Shown: positions 26,217 to 64,000 of the stretch, piece after piece
How the letters are laid out: each line of letters opens with the position of its first letter
How positions within the stretch are numbered: position 1 is the stretch's first letter
Assembly (NCBI RefSeq): GCF_004766055.1
Contig: NZ_SPQR01000008.1
Coordinates: 124,001-188,000, forward strand
Origin: Desulfosporosinus sp. Sb-LF
Lineage (GTDB): Bacteria > Bacillota > Desulfitobacteriia > Desulfitobacteriales > Desulfitobacteriaceae
Direction: 5' to 3'
Length of the DNA: 64,000 nucleotides
Position numbers and translations under genes: made by a program
The notes under the pieces: model-generated
What the model was told of the DNA's origin: nothing
Databases searched by the model: none
Seen by the model: only the letters and a program-made list of their open reading frames with translations

Positions 26217-28703
26217 TTATTTCGCCGTTTGCGAGGATGCATCTTCACACAAAATAGTTAAAAATTGTTCTACCATTTCGGGATCGAACTGTTTTCCGGA
26301 ACAGCTTTGTACTTCCTGAACAGCACTTTCTACGCTCATAGCCTCTTTGTAGTGTCTAGCGTGGGTCATAACATCATATGAATCGACAATTGCCAGCAGT
26401 CGGGACAACTTTGGAATTTCTTTACCTGCCAGACCCTGCGGATAACCAGTGCCATCATATCGTTCGTGGTGGGACAGGATTTCATCGGCAACGTGAGCTA
26501 ATTCCGGTGTCGACACTGCGATACGGTATCCTATTTCAGAATGGGTTTTCATAATTTCCCATTCATCCGTGGTTAGTTTAACAGGCTTAAGTAAGATGGC
26601 TTCGGGTATTCCGATTTTCCCAATATCATGAAGAAGGCCTAGGAGAGCCACTTCATCAAGTTCGTCCTGTGTTAGGCCCATTCTCATACCTATCTGTACA
26701 CATAGTTGTGCGATTCTCCTGGTGTGTTCTTCGGTTTCGATATGCTTTTCATGGAGGGATTGCTCAAGAGAACTCAATATTGAACTTTTCGCGCTTCGGC
26801 CTTCTAGAAGCTTAGTGCGGTACATCCTTTCTTCAGCCAGCTTAATAACAGCTTTCATATCTGTATGCAGTTCATCTTTCTTAGCGCGTCCCCACGATAT
26901 ACTGATTGGGGTCTGATATCCCGTCATATTACTACACTCTCTCTTTATGTCCCATATCAAGTTATCAACATAGTCGGCATTGTTGTCGTTGATCAGAATA
27001 ATGAATTCATCTCCACCCCACCGAGCAGGGCTATCATCCGATGAACAGCATTTCCTGAGAATTTCTCCGATCGCACGCAAGAGTCGATCCCCTTCTTGGT
27101 GCCCAAACGTGTCATTGATAAGTTTCAAGCCATTAACATCCCCCATGATGATCCAACTTTGACATAATAGACATTTATCAGCTTTTTCCAACCGGGCTTC
27201 AACAAAAGTTCGGTTCTTTAGCGTAGTGACCACATCCGTCTGGCTCAAATAAAGGTTTTCGGCCTCATAGTTTTTGCGTTGTGTAATATCCGAGATAGTA
27301 CCGATTAACCGCTTGGGGTTCTTCAAATTATCATACTCGACGATCTTCCCTCGAACCTGAAGCCACAACCATTCTCCGGACTTCCTCTGTGCCCTGTATT
27401 CCACGATTAATTTCTCAACTTTGCCGTTCAAGCAATCATTCAAAGCAGCTAGATATTGGTCTCTATCCTCCAGATGAATTATGTTGAAGACTTGATCATA
27501 ATCTAGATAACCTTCGCGGTTCTCGAATCCTAAATATCTGAGCCAGTCAGGGTTAACATAGAATTTATGTAGCAATAGGTCTATATCATAATAGCCATCG
27601 TTAATCGCTTCCATGATCAATTTAAAGCGTTCTTCATTAAGTTTTATTTCTTCATAATAGCTATCAATCTCTTTCAACATGTTATTTGCACTCGTAGCAA
27701 GATTTGAGATTTCATCTTTTCCCGGCAAAGAGATCATTTCAGTCATCTTCTTCTTGTTTCTGAACGATTTCACAAATTCGTCAAGCTTTTCAATTCGCCG
27801 GAATACTAAAAACTCTAAGACTAATAAGCTGAGGCTAGTGATAATTAGAAATGTTGCTATAAATATAACACTAGCGTAATTGATGATAGCCAATCCATCG
27901 AGATACATGGGTCTTCCGGCATTAAGAACCATAATTATCTTAGAATTATGGTAGACATTATTAACAGGTGCATAACTTTTTATAGAATCTGTTGTCGTCT
28001 TGATATACAAGTTAGTGTCATCAAAGGACAATCTTAAATTATCCTGATTCAAAACGTCATAAACTACAGGATCTTGTAGAGTTTTAAATTCGATGTCCTG
28101 TTTCAAGACCTCTTTAAGATAATTCAATAATTTTTGATCAATTAACTTGCAAAAGACAATAACTCCATCATTAGGAGAATTTTTGTCGGACGTCGTCACG
28201 GGCGATATGGAAATAAGTATGGGCTTTCCAGAAATCATCAATAATCCCGTAATAGGAGTAGGGCTAGACATTAGACTTTTATAGTTTTCTCCCTTTTGTA
28301 AACTCTGAAGTAACTCATCTTTAAATGAACTCTCTTTTGCGGCATCGATTCCATAGGTTTTTGCAAACAGTGTATCCCCTTTAAGATCAAAAAAGCCCAT
28401 GTAATTAAGGTTTAAGGAAGTAAAGGTATTATCTTGAAGGTTAACATCAACATAGTGACTATTAGTGCCGTTTAGAAAGTGGAAAGTATCATCCCAATAA
28501 CTCCAGTCCTTCACGGAATTTTCTAAGGAAGATTCTTCTCGCTGTATAATTGACATTGCACGGTGAAAGTCTTGATCAACAATTTTAGTTTCTGTTTTTT
28601 TTGCATAATTCATAAATAAAGCCCTAAGTAATATTGTGGAAAATAATGCTACAAAGAATATTCCGGAGATTGCAACTATAGAAATTTTATGCCTTATCTT
28701 CAA
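26217..28703 (-). CDS. CHASE4-PAS-GGDEF-HD-GYP membrane protein (c-di-GMP turnover)
   Basis: An 828-residue membrane signalling protein. Order: TM helix (about 10-30); extracellular CHASE4-like sensor (about 40-265); TM (about 275-298); HAMP-like linker; PAS/PAC (about 360-480); GGDEF (about 490-640) with intact RWGGDEF; HD-GYP (about 650-820) with HDIGKIG and HHERYDGTGYP. It could both make and break c-di-GMP. The RxxD inhibition site five residues before GGDEF appears lost (SSDD there). The TTG at 28703 is chosen because agaggtgatc, a near-perfect Shine-Dalgarno, lies just upstream. The GTG at 28712 falls inside that site. It is monocistronic. Confidence 0.9.
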   Translation of the reverse strand: MKIRHKISIVAISGIFFVALFSTILLRALFMNYAKKTETKIVDQDFHRAMSIIQREESSLENSVKDWSYWDDTFHFLNGTNSHYVDVNLQDNTFTSLNLNYMGFFDLKGDTLFAKTYGIDAAKESSFKDELLQSLQKGENYKSLMSSPTPITGLLMISGKPILISISPVTTSDKNSPNDGVIVFCKLIDQKLLNYLKEVLKQDIEFKTLQDPVVYDVLNQDNLRLSFDDTNLYIKTTTDSIKSYAPVNNVYHNSKIIMVLNAGRPMYLDGLAIINYASVIFIATFLIITSLSLLVLEFLVFRRIEKLDEFVKSFRNKKKMTEMISLPGKDEISNLATSANNMLKEIDSYYEEIKLNEERFKLIMEAINDGYYDIDLLLHKFYVNPDWLRYLGFENREGYLDYDQVFNIIHLEDRDQYLAALNDCLNGKVEKLIVEYRAQRKSGEWLWLQVRGKIVEYDNLKNPKRLIGTISDITQRKNYEAENLYLSQTDVVTTLKNRTFVEARLEKADKCLLCQSWIIMGDVNGLKLINDTFGHQEGDRLLRAIGEILRKCCSSDDSPARWGGDEFIILINDNNADYVDNLIWDIKRECSNMTGYQTPISISWGRAKKDELHTDMKAVIKLAEERMYRTKLLEGRSAKSSILSSLEQSLHEKHIETEEHTRRIAQLCVQIGMRMGLTQDELDEVALLGLLHDIGKIGIPEAILLKPVKLTTDEWEIMKTHSEIGYRIAVSTPELAHVADEILSHHERYDGTGYPQGLAGKEIPKLSRLLAIVDSYDVMTHARHYKEAMSVESAVQEVQSCSGKQFDPEMVEQFLTILCEDASSQTAK

Positions 28704-28945
28704 ATTGATCACCTCTAAATGTTCATCGAAATTATACTAGAGTCTTGATTTGTTTGATGAATAGGATATTTGCGCGAATTACGTCGAATATTACTATTCT
28801 TTCGACATCTTGTTCTAAATACCTCTTTTCTTGATCTTTCCACTATTCTCTGAGCTTACCCCCAAGGTCCTTTACTTTTAGATGAGATTTTAGTGTGCAG
28901 GTGAGCGTACTTTCTGGCGTCAATTTCTGAACCTGTTCAGCAAGT

Positions 28946-29601: not shown

Positions 29602-29645
29602 ATAAACCCTGTGGCCATGTGGAAATTCCTGGCCACAGGGTTTAT
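29602..29645 (-). terminator. Terminator of the ammonium operon
   Basis: A perfect 16-bp inverted repeat (ataaaccctgtggcca with its complement) 26 bases past the amt stop. Read leftward it enters an A/T-rich stretch. Confidence 0.85.
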
Positions 29646-29670: not shown

Positions 29671-30885
29671 TTATAAATCGTAAGCGACTTCGCCGTGAAT
29701 GGAGGTGTCCAGCCCCAGTATTTCCATCTTTTCGGGTACCCGGACTGAATCGAAAACATTGATGACTTTTAGAATTAGATAGGTTACGACAAAGGCGTAG
29801 ACACCAGTAAAGACAACACCAAATACCTGAATCAGGAATTGGTGAACGTTACCCTGAACTAGCCCACTCGTGCCATTAACGACTGATTCGGCAAAGACAC
29901 CCACCAGTATGGAGCCCAGAATACCGCCGACTCCATGAACTCCCCAGACGTCAAGGGCATCGTCCCAGTCAAGTTTAATTCGCACTTGTACAGCCAGATA
30001 ACAAACAACGGAGGACAAAATGCCGATAATTACTGCAGCCCATGGTCGGACATAACCCGCTGCTGGCGTAATTGTTGCCAAACCAGCGACTGCACCGGTC
30101 AGAACGCCGACCATAGTCGGTTTCTTTTCATGAATCCAAGAAATTAATAGCCAAGTAATCATGGCCAGCGAACCAGCAATATCTGTATTCACAAAGGCCG
30201 TTGCCGCGATTCCATTAGCGGCTAAAGCGCTGCCGCCATTGAAACCGAACCAGCCAAACCATAAGAGGCCAGTTCCTAAGGCAACAAAGGCAATGTTATG
30301 GGGTGCGGCATTTTCCCCTGGCACCATAACTCGTTTGCCGACAAAAAAGACAGAGGCCAAGGCAGCAATGCCAGCGCTGACGTGAACAACGATACCACCT
30401 GCAAAATCAACCACGCCCATTTGAGCCAGAAAACCGCCGCCCCAGACCCAGTGGGTCAAAGGTATATAGACTAAAATGCTCCACAGGACTAAAAACTTCA
30501 GGTAGCTCTTAAAATTGACCCTGTCGGCAAAGGCCCCAGTAATCAAAGCAGGAGTTATAATAGCAAACATTGATTGATAAATATAGAATACTAAAAACGG
30601 TATCGTTGGCCCATAAGCAGGATTGGGGCTCATGCCGACTCCTTGTAACCCGAAATATTGAAGATTGCCGATCAGGCCATGCATGTCTTTACCAAAGGCT
30701 AGACTGAACCCGCCAAAAACCCAAATGGCTGTGACGATTCCCATGGAAATAAAACTCTGAATCATAATAGTCAAAACGTTCTTTTTTCGTACCAGGCCAC
30801 CGTAAAAGAAGGCTAATCCCGGCGTCATTAGGCAAACCAGTGCAGCACTGATTAATACAAAGGCTGTATCCCCACTGTTGATCAT
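29671..30885 (-). CDS. amt: Ammonium transporter Amt
   Basis: A 404-residue, 11-helix ammonium channel/transporter of the Amt/MEP/Rh family in the cytoplasmic membrane. Key features are present: Asp160 (DFAGG), twin pore histidines His168 (IVVHVSAG) and His317 (WGVHGVGG), the pore Phe in QSMFAIITPALI (Phe107) and WFGFNGGS. A C-terminal tail of the type that contacts PII is present, but no glnK/glnB gene adjoins it. It lies 112 bases after the response-regulator gene and ends the sensor operon. A 12-bp imperfect dyad (gagaaattcctc, 30977-30988) in that gap could be an operator. RBS ggaggg is good. Confidence 0.95.
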   Translation of the reverse strand: MINSGDTAFVLISAALVCLMTPGLAFFYGGLVRKKNVLTIMIQSFISMGIVTAIWVFGGFSLAFGKDMHGLIGNLQYFGLQGVGMSPNPAYGPTIPFLVFYIYQSMFAIITPALITGAFADRVNFKSYLKFLVLWSILVYIPLTHWVWGGGFLAQMGVVDFAGGIVVHVSAGIAALASVFFVGKRVMVPGENAAPHNIAFVALGTGLLWFGWFGFNGGSALAANGIAATAFVNTDIAGSLAMITWLLISWIHEKKPTMVGVLTGAVAGLATITPAAGYVRPWAAVIIGILSSVVCYLAVQVRIKLDWDDALDVWGVHGVGGILGSILVGVFAESVVNGTSGLVQGNVHQFLIQVFGVVFTGVYAFVVTYLILKVINVFDSVRVPEKMEILGLDTSIHGEVAYDL

Positions 30886-30997
30886 CTCAAAATCCCTCCA
30901 CTGTTTAAGATCGCTTGTTATTTACATCTTAAAACAGAAAAGCGGATTCGTTAATCAGGGTTATCCTGTATATTCTGAGAAATTCCTCTGTATTTTG

Positions 30998-31642
30998 TTA
31001 GGGCTCGATGAGGTGATTGCGGACAGCATATAAAACCAAATCCGTGATACTTTTCAAGCCTAGTTTATGCATAATATTCGAACGATGAGTTTCCACGGTC
31101 TTTAAACTCAAATTCAGCAGTTGAGCAATATCCTTGTTACTGTTTCCCTCGGCTAAAAGCTGTACTATTTCTCTTTCTCGGGAAGAAATAAGCTCAGCTT
31201 TCCCTCCTTTTCGGTTGAAATTGGCTACGAAGCCAGATACGACAGTTGAAGTAATATCTGAAGAAAGGTAAATTCCTCCAGTCTGTACGATTCTAATCGA
31301 TTTTAGGAGTTCCTCCAGGGCGTTATCTTTTAAGACATAGCCGTTAACTTCCAATTGATACGCCCGGGCCACGAAATCCTCATTTTTATGCATAGTTAAA
31401 ATAATTATCTTAATAGAAGGGTCTTCCTTTTTGAGACGAGCAGCGACTTCTAAACCATTGAGTCGAGGAAGAGAGATGTCCAAAATTGCAATATCTGGTT
31501 TCAGACGCAGAATTTCATCGAGGGCCTTGTGACCTTCGGCGGCCTCGCCAATCACTTCAATATCGCTTTCCTGTTGCAGTAAAAAGATTAGAGATTCGCG
31601 CAGTATTTTATGGTCATCGGCTAAAAACACCTTAATCGTCAT
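30998..31642 (-). CDS. NarL/FixJ-family response regulator
   Basis: A 214-residue regulator with an N-terminal receiver domain (about 1-120; acidic pocket Asp9/Asp10, phospho-acceptor Asp55 in ILDISLP, Lys near 105) and a C-terminal LuxR-type HTH (about 148-210; SSREREIVQLLAEG, then LKTVETHRSNIMHKL). It is the expected partner of a HisKA_3 kinase. Its start overlaps the end of the Amt-kinase gene by 11 bases and has ggaggt five bases upstream. It probably controls transcription of nitrogen genes such as the adjacent amt, but no target is proven. Confidence 0.93.
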   Translation of the reverse strand: MTIKVFLADDHKILRESLIFLLQQESDIEVIGEAAEGHKALDEILRLKPDIAILDISLPRLNGLEVAARLKKEDPSIKIIILTMHKNEDFVARAYQLEVNGYVLKDNALEELLKSIRIVQTGGIYLSSDITSTVVSGFVANFNRKGGKAELISSREREIVQLLAEGNSNKDIAQLLNLSLKTVETHRSNIMHKLGLKSITDLVLYAVRNHLIEP

Positions 31643-33563
31643 AAGGTACCTCCATCATTAAGGTTGTCCCTTTTCCTTCTTCAGTGCTAATATGTAGCTT
31701 CCCACCGAGCATTTTTAGCCTCTCCTGGATGGAACTCAAGCCCAACCCGGCGTGGATTTCATTAACGTTAAAGCCCTGGCCGTTATCACTGATTTGAAAA
31801 AGATAAAGGTTGCTTCTGAGCCTGCTAAAGTTTACGGCGATTTGAGTCGCCTGAGCATGTTTTAAGATATTCGTCAAACATTCCTGAATGACCCGGTACA
31901 GATTTAAGCTAGCGGCTTCTTCCCAGATGGGCATTGTGGTTAGTAAATGATATTCAAACCGGATGCCACTGGCTTTTTCCAGGTTCTTCAATAAAACTTC
32001 GACAGACGCCGATAGTCCTTTCTCTTGCAAAAGAGCCGGTTTCAAATTAAATAAAACCCCTCGGATTTCCTCAATGGTTTCAGCTGTTAAGCTCACTGTG
32101 CGTTCGACCTGCCCACTTAACTGAGAATTCGGATGTTCAACCTTAATTTTCTGAGCAATCATGCCCAATTGTAGTTTTAAAGCTGCGAGGGATTGACCGA
32201 CACCGTCATGAAGATCTCTTGCCAGTTTTACCCGTTCTTGCTCCTGAGTTTCCACGAGAAGCTTGGCTTGCTTCTGCAACAATTGATTTTGAACTTGGAT
32301 TGTTCCGCTGAGGTCCTGAGTCAGAATCTCATAATGCGTCATTTTCAAATAGTCCTGCCAGGAATAAAGATCGGCGAATTCAACTATGTTTAATCCTTTT
32401 TCTTCTTCCTCTACGGAGACCCGTAGGCCAATCGTCTTATTAATCAGGTAAAACATCAAGAGCCCTAAACCAAACGCCCAGAGAAAATTAACACTCACGC
32501 CCGTCAATTGAACCAAAATTTTGACCAGGCGTGTTTGGCCATCCAAAATTTCCGATGGAGCTAAAAAAGCCAACAAGATCGTGCCCGTAGCGCCGCCAAA
32601 ACCGTGAATGGACACCGCTCCCACGGCATCATCCAACCCGAGCTTTTCCAGCCACAATCCAGAAAAGACAACGACGGAACCTGAGATTAATCCAACTATA
32701 ACGGCATCCTGTGGTTGGAGGTAGTTGGAACCGGCCGTAATAGCGACTAGCCCTCCCAAGGCTCCCGCAAAGATAGCCTCCATATAACTATGGTCTTTGA
32801 GGAAAAAATGGTTGGTTAGAATCGCACCGACAACTCCCGAAGCTGCCGAAAAATTGGTGTTTAATAGAATCAAACCGACTCGGTCATTAAACTCTAACAG
32901 GCTGCCACCGTTAAAGCCAAACCAACTAAACCATAAAATGAAAGTTCCTAAAGCTGCAAAGGGAATGTTGGATCGTCCTAATTTTTTTAACTTTCCGGTA
33001 GCATCCCAGCGATCTTTGCGTGCCCCGACCATGATAATTCCAGCTAAGGAAACCCAACCTGCCGTTCCGTGAACGACGGTAGCTCCGGCAAAATCTAAGA
33101 AACCCAGCTGTTTTAACCAGGCAGGTTGATTAAGGAATAAATCTCCCCATACCCAATGCCCAAACAGGGGATAAATGAAACCTGCAAGGAAACCTGCGGC
33201 GATCAGTAAGGGGAGTAGACGGGTTCTCTCAGACATACTCCCGGAGACAATCGTCACCGCGGTTCCGGCAAACATTAGTTCAAAAAAAACAAACACATAT
33301 CCCAGGGAAGGATAAGTAAGAGGCAGATGGCTGAGTAACCAGTAGTTGCCACCGAAAATTCCCAGATGAGTGGGTCCGAACATCAGTGCAAAACCCAAAA
33401 AACAGTAAACCAAGGTCGTGATGACAAACGTGAGGATGTTTTCAATGGCCACACTAATGACATTCTTGGATTGGATAAATCCAACTTCATAGCAAACAAA
33501 GCCGGCCTGCATAAAGAAAACAAAACTCGCACTTACGATGATCCAGAGGTGATTCATATTCAT
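31632..33563 (-). CDS. Amt-domain sensor histidine kinase (ammonium sensor)
   Basis: A 643-residue fusion. Residues 1-380 form a complete Amt/Rh domain: Phe98 gate, WVWG (139), Asp157, twin histidines His165 (VVHGTAG) and His320 (SIHGFGG), WFGFNGGS. A short linker and coiled coil (about 385-442) lead to a HisKA_3 kinase of the NarX/DegS type: phospho-acceptor His452 in RDLHDGVGQ, N-box Asn565, DNGQGF at 593-598, GLGL at 606-609. The intact pore suggests it binds or conducts ammonium while signalling to the overlapping response regulator. Comparable Amt-kinase fusions are known (Kuenenia Ks-Amt5), so the class is described. The combination here is discussed under findings. Confidence 0.93.
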   Translation of the reverse strand: MNMNHLWIIVSASFVFFMQAGFVCYEVGFIQSKNVISVAIENILTFVITTLVYCFLGFALMFGPTHLGIFGGNYWLLSHLPLTYPSLGYVFVFFELMFAGTAVTIVSGSMSERTRLLPLLIAAGFLAGFIYPLFGHWVWGDLFLNQPAWLKQLGFLDFAGATVVHGTAGWVSLAGIIMVGARKDRWDATGKLKKLGRSNIPFAALGTFILWFSWFGFNGGSLLEFNDRVGLILLNTNFSAASGVVGAILTNHFFLKDHSYMEAIFAGALGGLVAITAGSNYLQPQDAVIVGLISGSVVVFSGLWLEKLGLDDAVGAVSIHGFGGATGTILLAFLAPSEILDGQTRLVKILVQLTGVSVNFLWAFGLGLLMFYLINKTIGLRVSVEEEEKGLNIVEFADLYSWQDYLKMTHYEILTQDLSGTIQVQNQLLQKQAKLLVETQEQERVKLARDLHDGVGQSLAALKLQLGMIAQKIKVEHPNSQLSGQVERTVSLTAETIEEIRGVLFNLKPALLQEKGLSASVEVLLKNLEKASGIRFEYHLLTTMPIWEEAASLNLYRVIQECLTNILKHAQATQIAVNFSRLRSNLYLFQISDNGQGFNVNEIHAGLGLSSIQERLKMLGGKLHISTEEGKGTTLMMEVPYDD

Positions 33564-33897: not shown

Positions 33898-34530
33898 ATG
33901 GACAAGACTATTCGGAAAATGATACCTGCAGAATTGGAAAGTATCTACCAACGTATTGAACTTGATTTTGCAGTAGGCGAGTATGCTCCATTGAATGTTT
34001 TGGCCAAACAGATTGAAAAGGGTGTACAACAAGGTTCTATTTTTCATAATGGTGAAAATGATGTTGCCTATTCAATTTGCGCAGATGGATGCGCCAACGG
34101 ATATGTCCTCATTAGTTTATTGTCAGTGTATAATGATTTTAGGGCCCTTGGTCTTGGGTCGACTTTCCTAGAAGCCTTGATTAGAAATTATTCCCTGAAG
34201 CAAGGTGTTGTCGTTGAAGTTGAAAAGCCTGAGAACTCAAGAACTGACGAGGAAAGATTACTCTGCGAAAAAAGAATAAAATTCTATCAAAAGGCAGGGT
34301 TTAATTTGGTTCCTAACATCGATTATTCAATATGGGATGTTCCAATGCATCTTATGGTATTACCATTGAATGCGTCTATGAATACTATGAATAAGATGAT
34401 TGGACAAATAATACGCGAAATATACATAGGACTTATGGGAAAACGCTATATTCATAAATTGGAATTTAGTTATGTATTACCCCAGGACATTAAAAGAGAT
34501 GATCAGGATCAGAAAGGTTCAACATTATGA
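33898..34530 (+). CDS. GNAT-family N-acetyltransferase
   Basis: A 210-residue protein with the GNAT acetyl-CoA region at about residues 65-95 (ANGYVLISLLSVYNDFRALGLGSTFLEALI). Here RxLGLG fits the pyrophosphate-binding Q/RxxGxG/A loop. A FYQKAGF segment near 125 is typical of the fold's last strands. The substrate is unknown. A positively charged C-terminal helix (about 160-205) goes beyond the core domain. RBS gggaggaaa. The Crp/Fnr regulator begins right after its stop, so the two are probably co-transcribed. Confidence 0.85.
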   Translation: MDKTIRKMIPAELESIYQRIELDFAVGEYAPLNVLAKQIEKGVQQGSIFHNGENDVAYSICADGCANGYVLISLLSVYNDFRALGLGSTFLEALIRNYSLKQGVVVEVEKPENSRTDEERLLCEKRIKFYQKAGFNLVPNIDYSIWDVPMHLMVLPLNASMNTMNKMIGQIIREIYIGLMGKRYIHKLEFSYVLPQDIKRDDQDQKGSTL

Positions 34531-34531
34531 C

Positions 34532-35200
34532 ATGAGGGGGGAAGTTGTGTTTCAGATAACGGACGGAGAACTTGAGTATTTAATTAGAATAGCTCCAGAA
34601 ATTAAATACCCCAAAGGGCAGATCGTTTTTTCAACCTGCCAAAGGACAAATGAAGTTTATTATATTAAAAGTGGTTTGGTTAAGATTTACCGCACTACAT
34701 CAGACGGTCGTCAGGTGTCTGTTGCAATCCGGTATCCAGGTGACTTTATTGGTCTGGCTGAAGTGCTGAGTCATGTTAATGAGAGAGAGTATAGTGCAGA
34801 GGCAATGGACAATGTATCTATTATAATTATCGGAAAGGATAGCTTTAAAAAAATGCTGACCGAAATGCCCGAGTTTTCCGAGAAGCTGATCAGGCTGATG
34901 AGTGATAGGTTAAGGGAAGCACAGAATACAATCTATGATTTTATCATGAACCCTATTCAAGGGCGGCTAGCCATTCTTCTGTTAAATATGGCGGAACGTG
35001 CAGGGACTGAAGGAGACGATGGTCTTATTCGTGTGCGATTGCGAGTTACCCAGGAAGAACTTGCCTGCGTAATAGGCTCAGCACGTCAAACGATTTCGTC
35101 TCTCCTCAACTTGCTTAAGGAAGACGGGGGCATCCAATATGAAGGTAGAGAGATTGTTAGCGTCAACCCAAACAAACTAAAAACATGGATTCAGGAATAA
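34532..35200 (+). CDS. Crp/Fnr-family transcriptional regulator
   Basis: A 222-residue regulator: cyclic-nucleotide-binding-type barrel (about 15-130), dimer helix (about 130-155, SDRLREAQNTIYDF) and winged HTH (about 165-215) with recognition region VTQEELACVIGSARQTISSLLNLLKEDG. The FNR iron-sulfur Cys set is absent; only two Cys are seen, so it is not a classical oxygen sensor. The start is ambiguous: ATG 34532 directly follows the GNAT stop, but GTG 34547 has aggggggaa ideally placed. A matching DNA dyad (35393-35408) precedes the DASS transporter, suggesting it controls the downstream cluster. Confidence 0.9.
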   Translation: MRGEVVFQITDGELEYLIRIAPEIKYPKGQIVFSTCQRTNEVYYIKSGLVKIYRTTSDGRQVSVAIRYPGDFIGLAEVLSHVNEREYSAEAMDNVSIIIIGKDSFKKMLTEMPEFSEKLIRLMSDRLREAQNTIYDFIMNPIQGRLAILLLNMAERAGTEGDDGLIRVRLRVTQEELACVIGSARQTISSLLNLLKEDGGIQYEGREIVSVNPNKLKTWIQE

Positions 35201-35277
35201 GAAACGGAACTCTCATTAATAGAAGTGAGAGTGTTGAAATTGGATAAAAGTTATTTTACAAAATGAAATAAAAGCTT

Positions 35278-35330
35278 AGCCGATAAAATAAAGGTCTTGT
35301 ATATTACCTTTATTTTATCGGCTGGCTTTT
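35278..35330 (+). terminator. Terminator after the Crp/Fnr gene
   Basis: A perfect 18-bp inverted repeat (agccgataaaataaaggt with its complement) with a 10-base loop, followed by a T-rich stretch. Confidence 0.88.
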
Positions 35331-35392
35331 ATTTTTTGTCACCAATACGACAGAAATGTGTCTCCAATTCGGTTTTCAGTACTTTGGTTTAT

Positions 35393-35408
35393 TGTTAATA
35401 TATTCACA
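35393..35408. promoter_or_regulatory. Crp/Fnr-type binding site before the DASS gene
   Basis: TGTTAATATATTCACA is a near-perfect palindrome (TGTkAA-TATA-TTmACA) and matches the Crp-type TGTGA-N6-TCACA at nine of ten positions. It lies 85 bases before the transporter start and 193 bases after the regulator gene. Confidence 0.6.
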
Positions 35409-35493
35409 TGTGGTAAAACGCTTACAGAGGGGTGAGCTAAAAAGAATTAAAGGTTACCTTTGGATTACAATATGAAAGAATGGAGGGTGTTAC

Positions 35494-36987
35494 ATGTCTG
35501 AGTTTACCTCACAAACAAAAACAAAGAGTACGAAAGTTATGGCGAAATCCACTGGAATTAAACATAACAAGTATGCATTACCTGGATTTATTTTTTCTTG
35601 GATAGTATTTGCGGCAATCTTAACAATGGTTCCCACGTCTGAAAGTCTCACTGGAGGTGGTCGAGCAGCCTTGGCTGTGATGGGTTGGGCTACAACAATT
35701 TGGTTGACCAATGGATTGCCTTTAGCAGTTTCAGGTTTGATGATACCGGTGTTATTATCCCTTACCGGTGCTAGTAAAAAGCTCCCCGAAGCCTTTAGCG
35801 GCTTTACTAATGACGTTACCTTCCTTATTCTTGGGTGTTTTATTCTGGCTGCTGTTATGCAAGTCACTGGCTTAGACAAACGGATTGCACTCAGTATTGT
35901 TTCAAGAGTTAAACCCACAGTAGGGAGTGTTTTGAAAGGCATAATTGGGGCTCACCTAGTAACCGCTGTACTTGTTCCTGCTACCAATGCCAGAGGAGCA
36001 CTTTTCTTGCCGATCATTCAAGGGTTAAACAGTTTATTTGAGAAAGCAGGTGAGGGTGCTAGGGCAAGAAAGGTATTTACAATGGTAGGTATCGGTTTCG
36101 CCTCACTGGCTTCCGGAACTATTTTGATGCACAGCCATATGTCGAATGTCATCGTGGCTCAAACCATTAATCAGGCCATGAAAAAAGACGTTATCACTTG
36201 GGGTTCATGGGCCTGGATGAATTGGCCTTTGCTGGGAATTCTGGTCATCATATATTACTGGGTTAATTGGGTCATGAAATCTAAAAATATTGAAGTCCCT
36301 GGTGGTATCTCGGAAATCAAACGCCAAAAAGAAGCGATGGGTAATATGACGACTACTGAATGGATTGTATTAGTAACCTTTGGCATTGCTATTTTATTGT
36401 GGGCAACCGAACAAATTCATGGTTATAATATGGCCTTAGTTGCCCTAGTCGCTGTGATGGTGCTATTTATTCCGGGCCTTACCAACTTTTCTTGGCAAAA
36501 GGTACAATCCAATACCCTCTTTGGTACTTGGTTGTTGCTCTGTGGTTCCTTGTCGCTGGTATCCGCTTTTTCAAAGACCGGTGTAGACAAGTGGATTGCC
36601 TCTCACTTAGTTGGTTTAGCACCGGCTTGGGGTTGGATTGGTGTTAGTATCTTCATCTGTGTGGTTGTGCAAATTAGCCGATTAGGTATTGTGAGTAACG
36701 TTGCGGCTGTAACCCTCTTGGCCCCTATTGTGGCTGCAATGGCCCCTATGCTTGGGCTGAACACCGTTGCCTTTACTATGATGGTGTTAAATGTGGATAG
36801 TTACGCCTTTGTTTTACCCATCTCGGTAACAGCCTGCCTAATCGCCTATGGAACCGAGGAATTTACCTTTGGCGAATTTGTTAAAGTAGGTGCTCCTATC
36901 ACCTTAATGGTAATTTTCTATATGGTTTTAATCATGGTACCTTGGTATGCAGTAACCGGGTATCCCATCTGGGTACCCGTTCATTAA
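35494..36987 (+). CDS. DASS-family anion:sodium symporter
   Basis: A 497-residue membrane transporter of the divalent anion:Na+ symporter (SLC13/CitT) family with about 12-14 helices. It shows LPLAVSGLMIPVLLSLTG (about 75-92), AVLVPATNARGALFLPIIQGL (about 155-175; an S/N-x-T-type motif region) and SVTACLIAYGTEEFTFGEFVKVG near 445-470. Substrates in the family are dicarboxylates, tricarboxylates or sulfate. DASS proteins have been proposed as sulfate importers in sulfate reducers, so sulfate or a sulfur oxyanion is plausible beside the AprA/B-like genes. It begins the three-gene unit and is preceded by a Crp/Fnr-type site. Confidence 0.9.
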   Translation: MSEFTSQTKTKSTKVMAKSTGIKHNKYALPGFIFSWIVFAAILTMVPTSESLTGGGRAALAVMGWATTIWLTNGLPLAVSGLMIPVLLSLTGASKKLPEAFSGFTNDVTFLILGCFILAAVMQVTGLDKRIALSIVSRVKPTVGSVLKGIIGAHLVTAVLVPATNARGALFLPIIQGLNSLFEKAGEGARARKVFTMVGIGFASLASGTILMHSHMSNVIVAQTINQAMKKDVITWGSWAWMNWPLLGILVIIYYWVNWVMKSKNIEVPGGISEIKRQKEAMGNMTTTEWIVLVTFGIAILLWATEQIHGYNMALVALVAVMVLFIPGLTNFSWQKVQSNTLFGTWLLLCGSLSLVSAFSKTGVDKWIASHLVGLAPAWGWIGVSIFICVVVQISRLGIVSNVAAVTLLAPIVAAMAPMLGLNTVAFTMMVLNVDSYAFVLPISVTACLIAYGTEEFTFGEFVKVGAPITLMVIFYMVLIMVPWYAVTGYPIWVPVH

Positions 36988-37009
36988 CCTATTTAGGGAG
37001 GAAGATTCG

Positions 37010-38770
37010 ATGTCAAGAGCAAATTTGCCCCAATCCTTTGATAAAATAGATGAGGTTCGCATCGATACAGATATTCTGATTATCGGCGCAGGAAATGCTG
37101 GCTGTTTCGCCGCCATTGAAGCCAAGCGTCTTAACCCTCATTTGAAGGTTACTTTAATGGAGAAAGCACACATCGACCGGAGTGGATGCCTAGCTGGTGG
37201 TATGGACGCGATTAATACTTATATAAAAAAGGATCGCACCATCGAAGACTTCGTTCGTTGGAGTCGTTCTCAGGCTGGTGGGCTGATCCGTGAAGATTTG
37301 ACCATTTCGATGGCAGAAGTTTTAAACAAGCCTATCGAAGAATGGGAAGAGTGGGGTATGCCCATTAAATATGAAGAAGATGGGGAAGAGTACAAAACTA
37401 GGGGTAAATGGGATATCACCATTAGCGGTTCGGAGATGAAAGTCATTTTGGCTGAAAAGACCCGTCAAACTGGATGTGAAATCATAAATCGTGTAGTAGC
37501 TACCAACTACCTTATGGAGGGGAATAAAGTCATTGGTGCTATTGGTTTTGGTGTGAGAGACGGCAAGGTGTATATCATTCGAGCTAAGGCAACCATTATA
37601 GCCACCGGTGGTGCAGCTGGTTTGTATAAGCCGTATCAAAACGATGGTAATGACAGCCACCACCAGCTATGGTATGCCCCTTTTAATGTAGGGACTGGTT
37701 TTGCGATCGGTATTCGTCAGGGTGCTGAAATGACGACCTTTGAAATGCGCTGGTGTGCCACACGAACCAAAGATTTTAATGGTCCCATCGATACCATTTC
37801 AGTGGGTTATAAAACACCGATGATTAACTGCAAGGGCGAGCAGATTCTGAAAACCCGTTACGCTCACCTAGGTGGGGATGCCGCTCCCCGCTATATCCGA
37901 GCTAACGCGCCCATGGATGAGTGGCGTGAGGGTCGTGGTCCTTGCTATGTGGATACCACGCACATGACTCCCGACCAAATCCATGATATGAAATACGATT
38001 ATCTAAATGAGCGCCCCAGCTATGTCTTATTTCTAGCCAGCCGAGCACAGGATTTAAGTAAGGAACCCATCGAAATTTATGGCTCTGACCCATACATTGT
38101 GGGGGGACATACAGCTAGCGGATATTGGGTTGATGTAAAAAGAGCTACCACCTTACCCGGATTATATGCCTGTGGTGATGTGGCGGGTGGCACACCCAAT
38201 AAATTTGTGGGCGGTTGTGCTGCTGAGGGGCTCTTGTCTGCTAGGGCTGCCGTTGACTATGTGGCTAGTGTAGAGCAGGGTATCATTAACGAGGAGCAAA
38301 TTTCCCAGGAGAAGGACAGGATTTTTGCACCTGGTTTCCGCCATAGTGTCGTGGGTGACGGTGTTAAACCCCGAGAAATGGAAGAACGGCTGCAGCGGCT
38401 GATGGATGAATATGCTGGGGGAGTGCACCAGTTTTTCAGAATGAACAAAGAAGGTTTGGAATATGCTCTGCGCAACCTCAAGATTTTGAAGGATCAAGTC
38501 AAATACCTAATTGCAACCGATCTTCATGAGTTGATGGATGCTCACGAAGTCATTGATCGATTAGACGTAGCTCAGGTACTGGTGCACCACCTGATGTACC
38601 GTGAAGAAACCAGATGGGCAGGCTGGCAAACCCGTGCTGATTTCCCAGAAAAGAACGATCAAAAATTCGATTGCTTTGTAAACTCCCGTTATAACCCCGA
38701 AACTGGAGACGTAGAAATGTTTACTCGCCCCTATGAACAAATCATCTCGGGGGACCGTTTAAAAGCTTAA
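37010..38770 (+). CDS. AprA-like flavoprotein (adenylylsulfate reductase alpha family)
   Basis: A 586-residue FAD protein of the AprA/fumarate-reductase superfamily. It has an N-terminal FAD loop (ILIIGAGNAGCFAAIEAKR, about 24-42) and long AprA-like stretches: AINTYIKKD, REDLT, EEWGMPI, WYAPFN and TRTKDFNGP with Arg252. A GGH motif follows at His367, and FAD-binding LPGLYACGDVAGG at about 385-400. Arg252 and His367 appear to match the substrate Arg and catalytic His of AprA. It is about 70 residues shorter than typical AprA, missing loop insertions. No signal peptide, so cytoplasmic. True APS reduction is possible, but no sat or qmo genes adjoin, so the acceptor may differ. It follows the DASS gene by 22 bases. 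Confidence 0.88.
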   Translation: MSRANLPQSFDKIDEVRIDTDILIIGAGNAGCFAAIEAKRLNPHLKVTLMEKAHIDRSGCLAGGMDAINTYIKKDRTIEDFVRWSRSQAGGLIREDLTISMAEVLNKPIEEWEEWGMPIKYEEDGEEYKTRGKWDITISGSEMKVILAEKTRQTGCEIINRVVATNYLMEGNKVIGAIGFGVRDGKVYIIRAKATIIATGGAAGLYKPYQNDGNDSHHQLWYAPFNVGTGFAIGIRQGAEMTTFEMRWCATRTKDFNGPIDTISVGYKTPMINCKGEQILKTRYAHLGGDAAPRYIRANAPMDEWREGRGPCYVDTTHMTPDQIHDMKYDYLNERPSYVLFLASRAQDLSKEPIEIYGSDPYIVGGHTASGYWVDVKRATTLPGLYACGDVAGGTPNKFVGGCAAEGLLSARAAVDYVASVEQGIINEEQISQEKDRIFAPGFRHSVVGDGVKPREMEERLQRLMDEYAGGVHQFFRMNKEGLEYALRNLKILKDQVKYLIATDLHELMDAHEVIDRLDVAQVLVHHLMYREETRWAGWQTRADFPEKNDQKFDCFVNSRYNPETGDVEMFTRPYEQIISGDRLKA

Positions 38771-63473: not shown

Positions 63474-64000
63474 ATGATTTTTCTTTTGAAAACTAATTTT
63501 ATTAATAAATCATTTAAACATAAACTGAGAGCTACTTATACCCTACTTATGTTTGTAGTTCTGATTTTAATATGTGCTTTTTTGTATTATCAAGTGAATA
63601 ACATTGTAAAACCCCTTATTAGTCATATCGGTTTACAGGTTGTTGATGGTGTAGCACAATCCATCGGAGAACGGTTTGAAAATCAAGGAAATATGTTAGA
63701 ACAACTTGCAAGTACAGAAACATTCAAAAATGGGGATTTTTCTAGCATCAAAAAAGAGATAGACAATCAAATGAGTAGGCAGGGTGATTTATGGTTATCC
63801 ATGAAGTACCAGCGAGTGACTGGCGAAGAATATGTGAATAACCCAGCTAGCATTCCATCGTCTGTTAGTTATGAGCAGGAATTATTAGCTGGAGATAAAC
63901 TTACGTCGATATCGAAGCCTGTTATTGATGATAGGGATGGTCAATATATTACTTATATAGGGACTAAGGTCATGGATAATGATGGGAATGTAAAGGGATT
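63474..64000 (+). CDS. Membrane sensor protein with Cache-like domain (N-terminal part; cut by window end)
   Basis: The frame is open to the window edge (about 175 residues). It shows one N-terminal membrane helix (about 20-40, TLLMFVVLILICAFLYY) and the start of an extracellular PDC/Cache-like sensor: a long helix with SIGERFENQGNMLEQLAS, then WLSMKYQRVTGEEYV and DGQYITYIGTKVMDNDGN. The output module (kinase, GGDEF or MCP) lies outside. The start is uncertain: ATG 63474 has aaaagg too close, and TTG 63486 is the other option. Confidence 0.75.
   Translation, partial: MIFLLKTNFINKSFKHKLRATYTLLMFVVLILICAFLYYQVNNIVKPLISHIGLQVVDGVAQSIGERFENQGNMLEQLASTETFKNGDFSSIKKEIDNQMSRQGDLWLSMKYQRVTGEEYVNNPASIPSSVSYEQELLAGDKLTSISKPVIDDRDGQYITYIGTKVMDNDGNVKG

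Follow-up and report, generated by a model that had tools for sequence, protein, structure and literature searches.

A candidate ammonium-sensing two-component system in Desulfosporosinus, encoded as an Amt–kinase fusion with a response regulator and a plain Amt

What might a histidine kinase be doing at the C-terminal end of an ammonium transporter, in a gene that stands directly beside those for a response regulator and a second, plain Amt? A three-gene unit of this kind occupies positions 29671–33563 of a 64,000-nucleotide stretch of the genome of Desulfosporosinus sp. Sb-LF (contig NZ_SPQR01000008.1, positions 124,001–188,000), the whole of which is here called the window. The fusion probably senses ammonium and acts via the regulator on the linked plain amt gene, which would make the unit a two-component system derived from a transporter and controlling a transporter of its own. 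The case for an Amt-kinase that senses external ammonium directly rests on Ks-Amt5 of Candidatus Kuenenia stuttgartiensis (PDB 6EU6), a proven ammonium-sensor histidine kinase that is reported to bind ammonium without efficient translocation (PMC5764959).

The product of the first gene (Table 1) matches the Pfam family Ammonium_transp over residues 6–397 (325 bits), HisKA_3 over residues 443–511 (54.5 bits; cut-off 24) and HATPase_c over residues 553–641 (52.9 bits; cut-off 26.4). It carries F98, W139, D157, H165, H320 and H452, the last of these inside the motif RDLHDGVGQ (449–457), in agreement with a preliminary description of the locus as a fusion of Amt with a HisKA_3 kinase having His452 in place. 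That description had also paired the kinase with a NarL-type regulator, overlapping the fusion gene and followed by a separate Amt. This too is borne out: the regulator matches Response_reg (94 bits) and GerE (73 bits), all four kinase and regulator domains exceed the Pfam cut-offs, the two genes overlap by 11 bp, and the plain Amt begins 112 bp beyond the regulator. The two-component parts are thus all present, with H452 in the H-box of the kinase and D55 in the receiver domain of the regulator, and because the genes overlap and the kinase and regulator classes match, the fusion is likely to pass its phosphoryl group to Asp55 of the co-encoded regulator.

The preliminary description had proposed tabulating the neighbours of such fusions. 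When this was done in Bacillota, fusion, regulator and plain Amt were found in identical order and strand at all 12 distinct intact fusions, those of two other families at 55–57% identity included, so the three-gene unit is real and more than a chance arrangement. Intact, full-length fusions are present in 8 of 60 near relatives, in 9 of 82 genomes of the class and in 6 of 398 genomes sampled from the phylum (the window's own genome being counted each time), where the phylum search scored three candidates per genome and the pattern search of genome contigs was non-exhaustive; three of the six from the phylum sample belong to two other families, at 56–57% identity, and one further genome (G020) holds a fragment of the fusion only. 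The loci include those of Desulfosporosinus fructosivorans, D. acididurans, Acididesulfobacillus acetoxydans and Peptococcaceae bacterium CEB3. The overlap between the fusion and regulator genes is 11 bp in 11 of the 12 units and 29 bp in the other (locus L073), and flanking genes within 6 kb are common only to L039/L040, L074/L075 and, for one gene, L038/L041. Pairwise distances of the three proteins correlate (r 0.97–0.99), as would be expected of a unit and equally of plain vertical descent. None of 72,556 plasmid records holds 80% of the fusion. A remnant of the unit was seen in D. metallidurans (L042:5965-7353): the fusion breaks off after about 190 residues, there is no regulator, and of the Amt only the last 68 residues survive.

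To which branch of the Amt proteins does the sensor half belong? Its best sequence matches in the PDB are Ks-Amt5 (374 bits), Sd-Amt1 (275), AfAmt1 (170) and AmtB (132), and Foldseek placed these relatives in the same order when given a predicted model, which was used for domain layout only (mean predicted local distance difference test score 72; 41–69 in blocks of residues 399–476). In a 53-row tree, for which 10 of 63 rows were omitted as near-copies or partial, the 12 fusions form one clade (support 100/100), and this is sister to Ks-Amt5 together with its orthologue from K. hertensis, L043 (98/93). Adding Sd-Amt1 and three alphaproteobacterial HisKA fusions gives a clade (100/99) separate from kinase-less relatives, a deeper grouping that deserves less trust than the sister relation to the Kuenenia proteins because the tree program warned of long branches (Sd-Amt1, L044, L046 and L048) and because the kinase-less rows came from Bacillota searches only. 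From these comparisons we infer that the Amt half of the fusion belongs to the sensor lineage. The preliminary description had credited it with a complete pore, and the residues named are indeed there; a complete pore need not imply transport, however, since the sister protein Ks-Amt5 is reported to bind ammonium without translocating it efficiently.

The kinase half tells a different story. HisKA_3 (PF07730) is present in all three fusions of this unit that were scanned (those of the window, L073 and L075), and the HisKA domain (PF00512) of Ks-Amt5 was not found in them, whereas all four fusions from outside Bacillota that were scanned against Pfam (L043, L044, L046 and L048) have HisKA. One sensor lineage therefore carries more than one kinase class. 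This bears on how trimeric Amts drive kinases that are mostly dimeric, Amt proteins being trimers in all the cases cited in the Ks-Amt5 paper (PMC5764959). Two of the non-Bacillota fusions, from alphaproteobacterial metagenome-assembled genomes, are hybrid kinases with the order Amt–PAS_7–HisKA–HATPase_c and two receiver stretches each (L046:5992-9348, 1118 residues; L048:5989-9384, 1131 residues).

How far does the resemblance to Ks-Amt5 extend into the ammonium site? In Ks-Amt5, two ammonium ions are reported to be held by Q24, E31, N47, D50, T51, T109 and T112, and obstruction to be by F27, Y30 and F34 (PMC5764959). All 12 fusions keep Q24, E31, N47 and T109 as well as the three bulky, obstructing residues (Y25 and F22/F29 of the fusions being as in Ks-Amt5), and at the T112 position 11 have serine and one alanine. 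The pore residues F98, W139, D157, H165 and H320 are retained in every fusion, and among the 18 columns tabulated for pore and site, 14 are invariant in the 12. Y25 sets Ks-Amt5, L043 and the fusions (14 of 14) apart from the tabulated kinase-less rows, as does L222 in 13 of 14 (valine in L073). At the C-terminal end of the Amt domain the transporter motif, which has the form GLD...H...AY in all seven kinase-less relatives compared, is replaced by GLNIVE in all 12 fusions, and the GLN of this motif recurs in Ks-Amt5, L043 and Sd-Amt1.

The same residues bear on two other accounts of the sensor half. It could be a transceptor that still transports, or it could respond to another cation or to the state of the pore and not to ammonium. 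This would accord with the retained pore residues, with the loss of D50 and with the occurrence of two of the three pore-blocking residues (F27 and F34) in PII-paired relatives too, but we regard it as very doubtful, given a sister protein in Ks-Amt5 that reportedly binds without efficient translocation and a tyrosine (Y25) that is shared by the fusions, Ks-Amt5 and L043 and occurs in no tabulated kinase-less relative. The Amt half might instead be a mere membrane anchor or docking place for PII proteins, the usual partners of Amts and encoded by four genes in this genome, with the kinase reading internal nitrogen. That seems extremely improbable: an anchor would have no need of 14 invariant columns, the C-terminal transporter motif has been replaced, and no PII gene lies near 11 of the 12 units.

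If the fusion is a sensor, what might it control? The preliminary description had named the interval between the regulator and amt genes (30886–30997) as the place where the regulator might bind and the plain Amt as the candidate target, and the conserved third gene and the element found inside that interval speak in favour of both. In all 12 gaps a half-site AATACAG is repeated at a distance of 22 bp, and 6 bp beyond the repeat stands a third, inverted half-site (CCTGATT, CCGTATT or a variant of these); a hexamer TAnnnT stands at offset 62 from the first half-site in all 12 as well, although the distance from the first half-site to the amt start varies between 101 and 108 and the gap itself between 100 and 353 bp. 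The regulator would be expected to bind this three-half-site element (30953–30994). A promoter scan listed no good –35 sequence for amt, and the inverted pair of half-sites is centred about 44 bp ahead of the predicted start, which together suggest that the regulator is an activator of the amt promoter.

Table 1. Features of the three-gene unit and of the candidate control element, in coordinates of the window
Feature	Position	Strand	Basis or score
Amt–HisKA_3–HATPase_c fusion, first gene, 643 residues; candidate ammonium-sensor kinase	31632..33563	–	Pfam
NarL/FixJ-type response regulator, second gene, 214 residues; Asp55 the expected phospho-acceptor	30998..31642	–	Pfam
Plain Amt of AfAmt1/AmtB type, third gene, 404 residues; candidate target and importer	29671..30885	–	
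Half-site 1, AATACAG	30988..30994	–	
Half-site 2, TATACAG (mostly AATACAG in relatives), 22 bp from half-site 1	30966..30972	–	
Half-site 3, inverted, CCTGATT	30953..30959	–	
–10-like hexamer TAAGAT, at the fixed offset of 62 from half-site 1	30926..30931	–	
Terminator-like hairpin 3' of plain Amt	29602..29645 (about)	–	–32.8 kcal/mol

Put together, the parts would work as follows. External ammonium would bind the Amt half of the fusion, as its phylogeny and the precedent of Ks-Amt5 suggest; the resulting change would be relayed through a single helix (residues 399–476, in a model of medium confidence) to the HisKA_3 domain, where it would set the autophosphorylation of His452 or a phosphatase activity; the phosphoryl group would pass to Asp55 of the regulator, and the phosphorylated regulator would then bind at 30953–30994 and activate the amt promoter, so that the plain Amt brings in ammonium. 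The sign of the response is a separate matter. The same parts could work in the opposite sense, the ammonium-free sensor being a kinase that ammonium turns into a phosphatase, with amt expressed under ammonium starvation. His452 of the fusion is followed by D453 and Q457, which we take to be a phosphatase motif, HisKA_3 kinases are often bifunctional, and classical control of amt genes is by nitrogen limitation. This alternative, which differs from our preferred explanation in sign only, is a real possibility, though on balance unlikely. What speaks against it is the behaviour of Ks-Amt5, whose phosphorylation is reported to climb steeply at low ammonium and to drop at high (PMC5764959), a weak argument in that its kinase is of another class. 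By analogy with Ks-Amt5, kinase activity raised by low external ammonium seems a more likely case than activity raised by the absence of ammonium.

Several points weigh against a sensor circuit of this kind, some of them attached to its own support. Nine of the 12 units come from close relatives. In a leave-clade-out scan (a 44-bp matrix, with the clade under test kept out of the training set, run over all positions on both strands), the true site ranks first in 11 of the 12 loci, both loci of family f17 included (1 of 30,916 and 1 of 28,916), but fails in L073 of genome G166 (rank 10 of 29,916), and the frame of the site had been chosen with all 12 loci in view. A sequence-only profile has a single strong hit in the Sb-LF genome (E 2.9e-8; next 0.52), gives matches below 1e-5 in 8 of 60 relatives, precisely those with an intact unit, and, with a lax filter, scores highest at the unit in six of six genomes searched (two of them repeats; best elsewhere 0.068; the G166 site itself at 0.001 only); because it was trained on the very sites that it finds, those scores are no evidence, and only the scarcity of second sites counts. 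On its own, the half-site pair shows no enrichment either in the genome (168 occurrences vs 210 for a reversed control) or in the window (six matches, a number reached by 20 of 100 shuffles), and was discarded as an uninformative signal. As to the sensor, the full two-cation site of Ks-Amt5 (Q24, E31, N47, D50, T51, T109 and T112) is not found in the fusions: D50 is replaced by threonine or alanine and T51 by phenylalanine or leucine in all 12, so that one of the two acidic site residues is missing. E41 takes the place of R46 of Ks-Amt5 in all 12, one helical turn ahead of T45, and it is a guess that this acid has moved within the site. Moreover, Q, E, N, D, T and S occur at six of the seven site positions in 18 of 22 distinct kinase-less relatives (a count that leaves out L001 and L003, of AmtB type, L045 and L049, partial or odd, and L026, a copy of L058), and a PII gene adjoins or is fused to the Amt in all seven such loci tested by tblastn. 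L052:5945-7306 is an example of a kinase-less Amt holding most of these residues. Site residues of Ks-Amt5 thus prove no sensing, since most occur in kinase-less relatives, and we rejected them as proof; their presence in kinase-less, PII-paired Amts means that what turns an Amt into a receptor has to be asked afresh.

The scarcity of second sites also bears on whether the linked amt gene is merely one target in a wider regulon, perhaps with genes for nitrogen fixation among its members. We think this quite unlikely, with one strong match per genome (next best 0.52 in the window's own genome and 0.068 in the six searched with the lax filter) and no site beyond chance near the other amt and PII genes of Sb-LF, where the best match (13.7 bits; 95% null 12.8) sits within an amt coding sequence. 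On the other side, sites with only one or two half-sites would elude a profile built on three, and nifH and two PII genes come after the unit in G166. Two further sites were considered and dropped. A second match in the window, at 63568 (15.3 bits), lies inside a gene on the opposite strand and was rejected against a null maximum of 15.5. Autoregulation of the sensor gene was abandoned, because the 44-bp matrix finds no good site 5' of that gene in any of the 12 loci (at most 5.1 bits, against a null maximum averaging 8.6 in 64 kb), and the 22-bp pair matrix exceeds its null (95%, 7.9 bits) at one locus of the 12 (L037, 14.4 bits, followed by L050 at 7.5).

What of the plain Amt and its own control? 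It is an ordinary member of its family (PF00909, 405 bits; 366 bits against AfAmt1 and 309 against AmtB), the plain Amts of the 12 units form a clade of their own (100/98) with the pore residues kept in all, and it presumably imports ammonium. The preliminary description had it that the unit lacks a PII gene and would be independent of GlnK. The first part holds in the window, where tblastn with four PII queries (E 1e-3) detected no homologue in 64 kb, and in 11 of the 12 units, but not as a rule: in G166, nifH and two tandem PII genes (L073:11145-12692) begin about 1.1 kb past the plain Amt of the unit, an arrangement that points, for one lineage at least, to a possible connection with nitrogen fixation. 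The claim of independence from GlnK had to be given up. The plain Amt retains an AmtB-like C-terminus, and the genome (4.27 Mb in 30 contigs) has four Amt genes and four PII genes (two of the latter singly beside the two amt genes that lie outside the window, the other two as a tandem pair on contig 6), so that control of the plain Amt by PII in trans is possible. Among the kinase-less relatives, G051 encodes an Amt–PII fusion in a single 568-residue frame (L058:7018-8724; PF00909, 368 bits; PF00543, 74 bits).

As to the surroundings of the unit, the hairpin 3' of the plain Amt has a z-score of –5.7 and was equalled in stability by none of 200 shuffles, and a simple terminator scan does not list it. 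Upstream and divergent (33898–38770, + strand) are genes for a weak GNAT match, a Crp-type regulator, a Na_sulph_symp transporter and a 586-residue protein that, judged by eye, resembles a flavoprotein reductase subunit. Downstream (26217–28712, – strand), and outside the conserved three genes, is a CHASE4–PAS–GGDEF–HD protein.

In the open-licence literature searched, we found no description of an Amt–HisKA_3 fusion, nor of the regulator of any Amt kinase. For Ks-Amt5, which is cited in reviews (PMC10433425, PMC8534201), the Discussion of the original paper refers to a 'yet to be identified RR' (response regulator; PMC5764959), and a 2026 paper restates this (PMC12918730). The present unit supplies a kinase, a candidate regulator, target gene and 42-bp DNA element in one conserved block, with named isolates among the genomes, so that the question unanswered for Ks-Amt5 becomes testable here with a partner regulator, a target gene and a DNA control site that can be named.

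The fusion is like Ks-Amt5 in having its kinase fused C-terminally to a complete Amt domain in one polypeptide, in its sister Amt domain with most of the site and blocking residues, and in lacking a PII gene close by. It differs in having HisKA_3 for HisKA, threonine or alanine for D50 and E41 for R46 (the Ks-Amt5 features being those given in PMC5764959), and in that the unit of the window has a linked regulator, transporter and DNA element; L043 of K. hertensis has no adjoining regulator, a lone receiver-like open reading frame lying about 3.2 kb off. In K. stuttgartiensis, according to PMC7438415, kinase domains are encoded by two of the Amt genes. Sd-Amt1 of Shewanella denitrificans (PDB 8QJ3 and 8QJ4, titled 'Receptor Sd-Amt1', in OFF- and ON-states), the second-best PDB match by sequence and structure, shares the larger clade with the fusions, and no paper on it was found among the open-licence literature. 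Like the Amt of ordinary amt–glnK pairs, the plain Amt matches TIGR00836 well (450 bits; cut-off 343), but its unit has no PII gene, and such pairs exist elsewhere in the same genome. The GrtK/GrtR system of Burkholderia glumae is likewise a two-component system for external ammonia, but according to PMC12918730 GrtK has no Amt module, GrtR is NtrC-like and amtB expression is apparently independent of the system.

The wiring proposed for the window unit would be that of the Uhp system of Escherichia coli with sensor and kinase fused. We take UhpB to be of the HisKA_3 class and UhpA of the NarL class; the NCBIfam models for the two fall far short of the required scores in this unit (134 of 408 and 108 of 258 bits), so the likeness is one of wiring only, without membership. 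In the Uhp system, UhpC senses glucose-6-phosphate, activates UhpB and via UhpA raises UhpT (PMC8871633); sensor and transporter are isogenes (PMC5890159). Both systems would thus have a transporter-like sensor, a kinase, a regulator and a transporter as target, although UhpC is no Amt and is a protein separate from its kinase. We may go one step further, as a tentative suggestion that is rather less probable than the sensor circuit itself: a receptor whose site has been reshaped by E41 and T/A45 may, through its HisKA_3/NarL pair, induce a single transporter gene when traces of ammonium are present outside the cell, without recourse to the internal glutamine/PII read-out. If so, the logic of Uhp would have been reached anew for ammonium, by putting a different class of kinase on the sensor lineage of Ks-Amt5.

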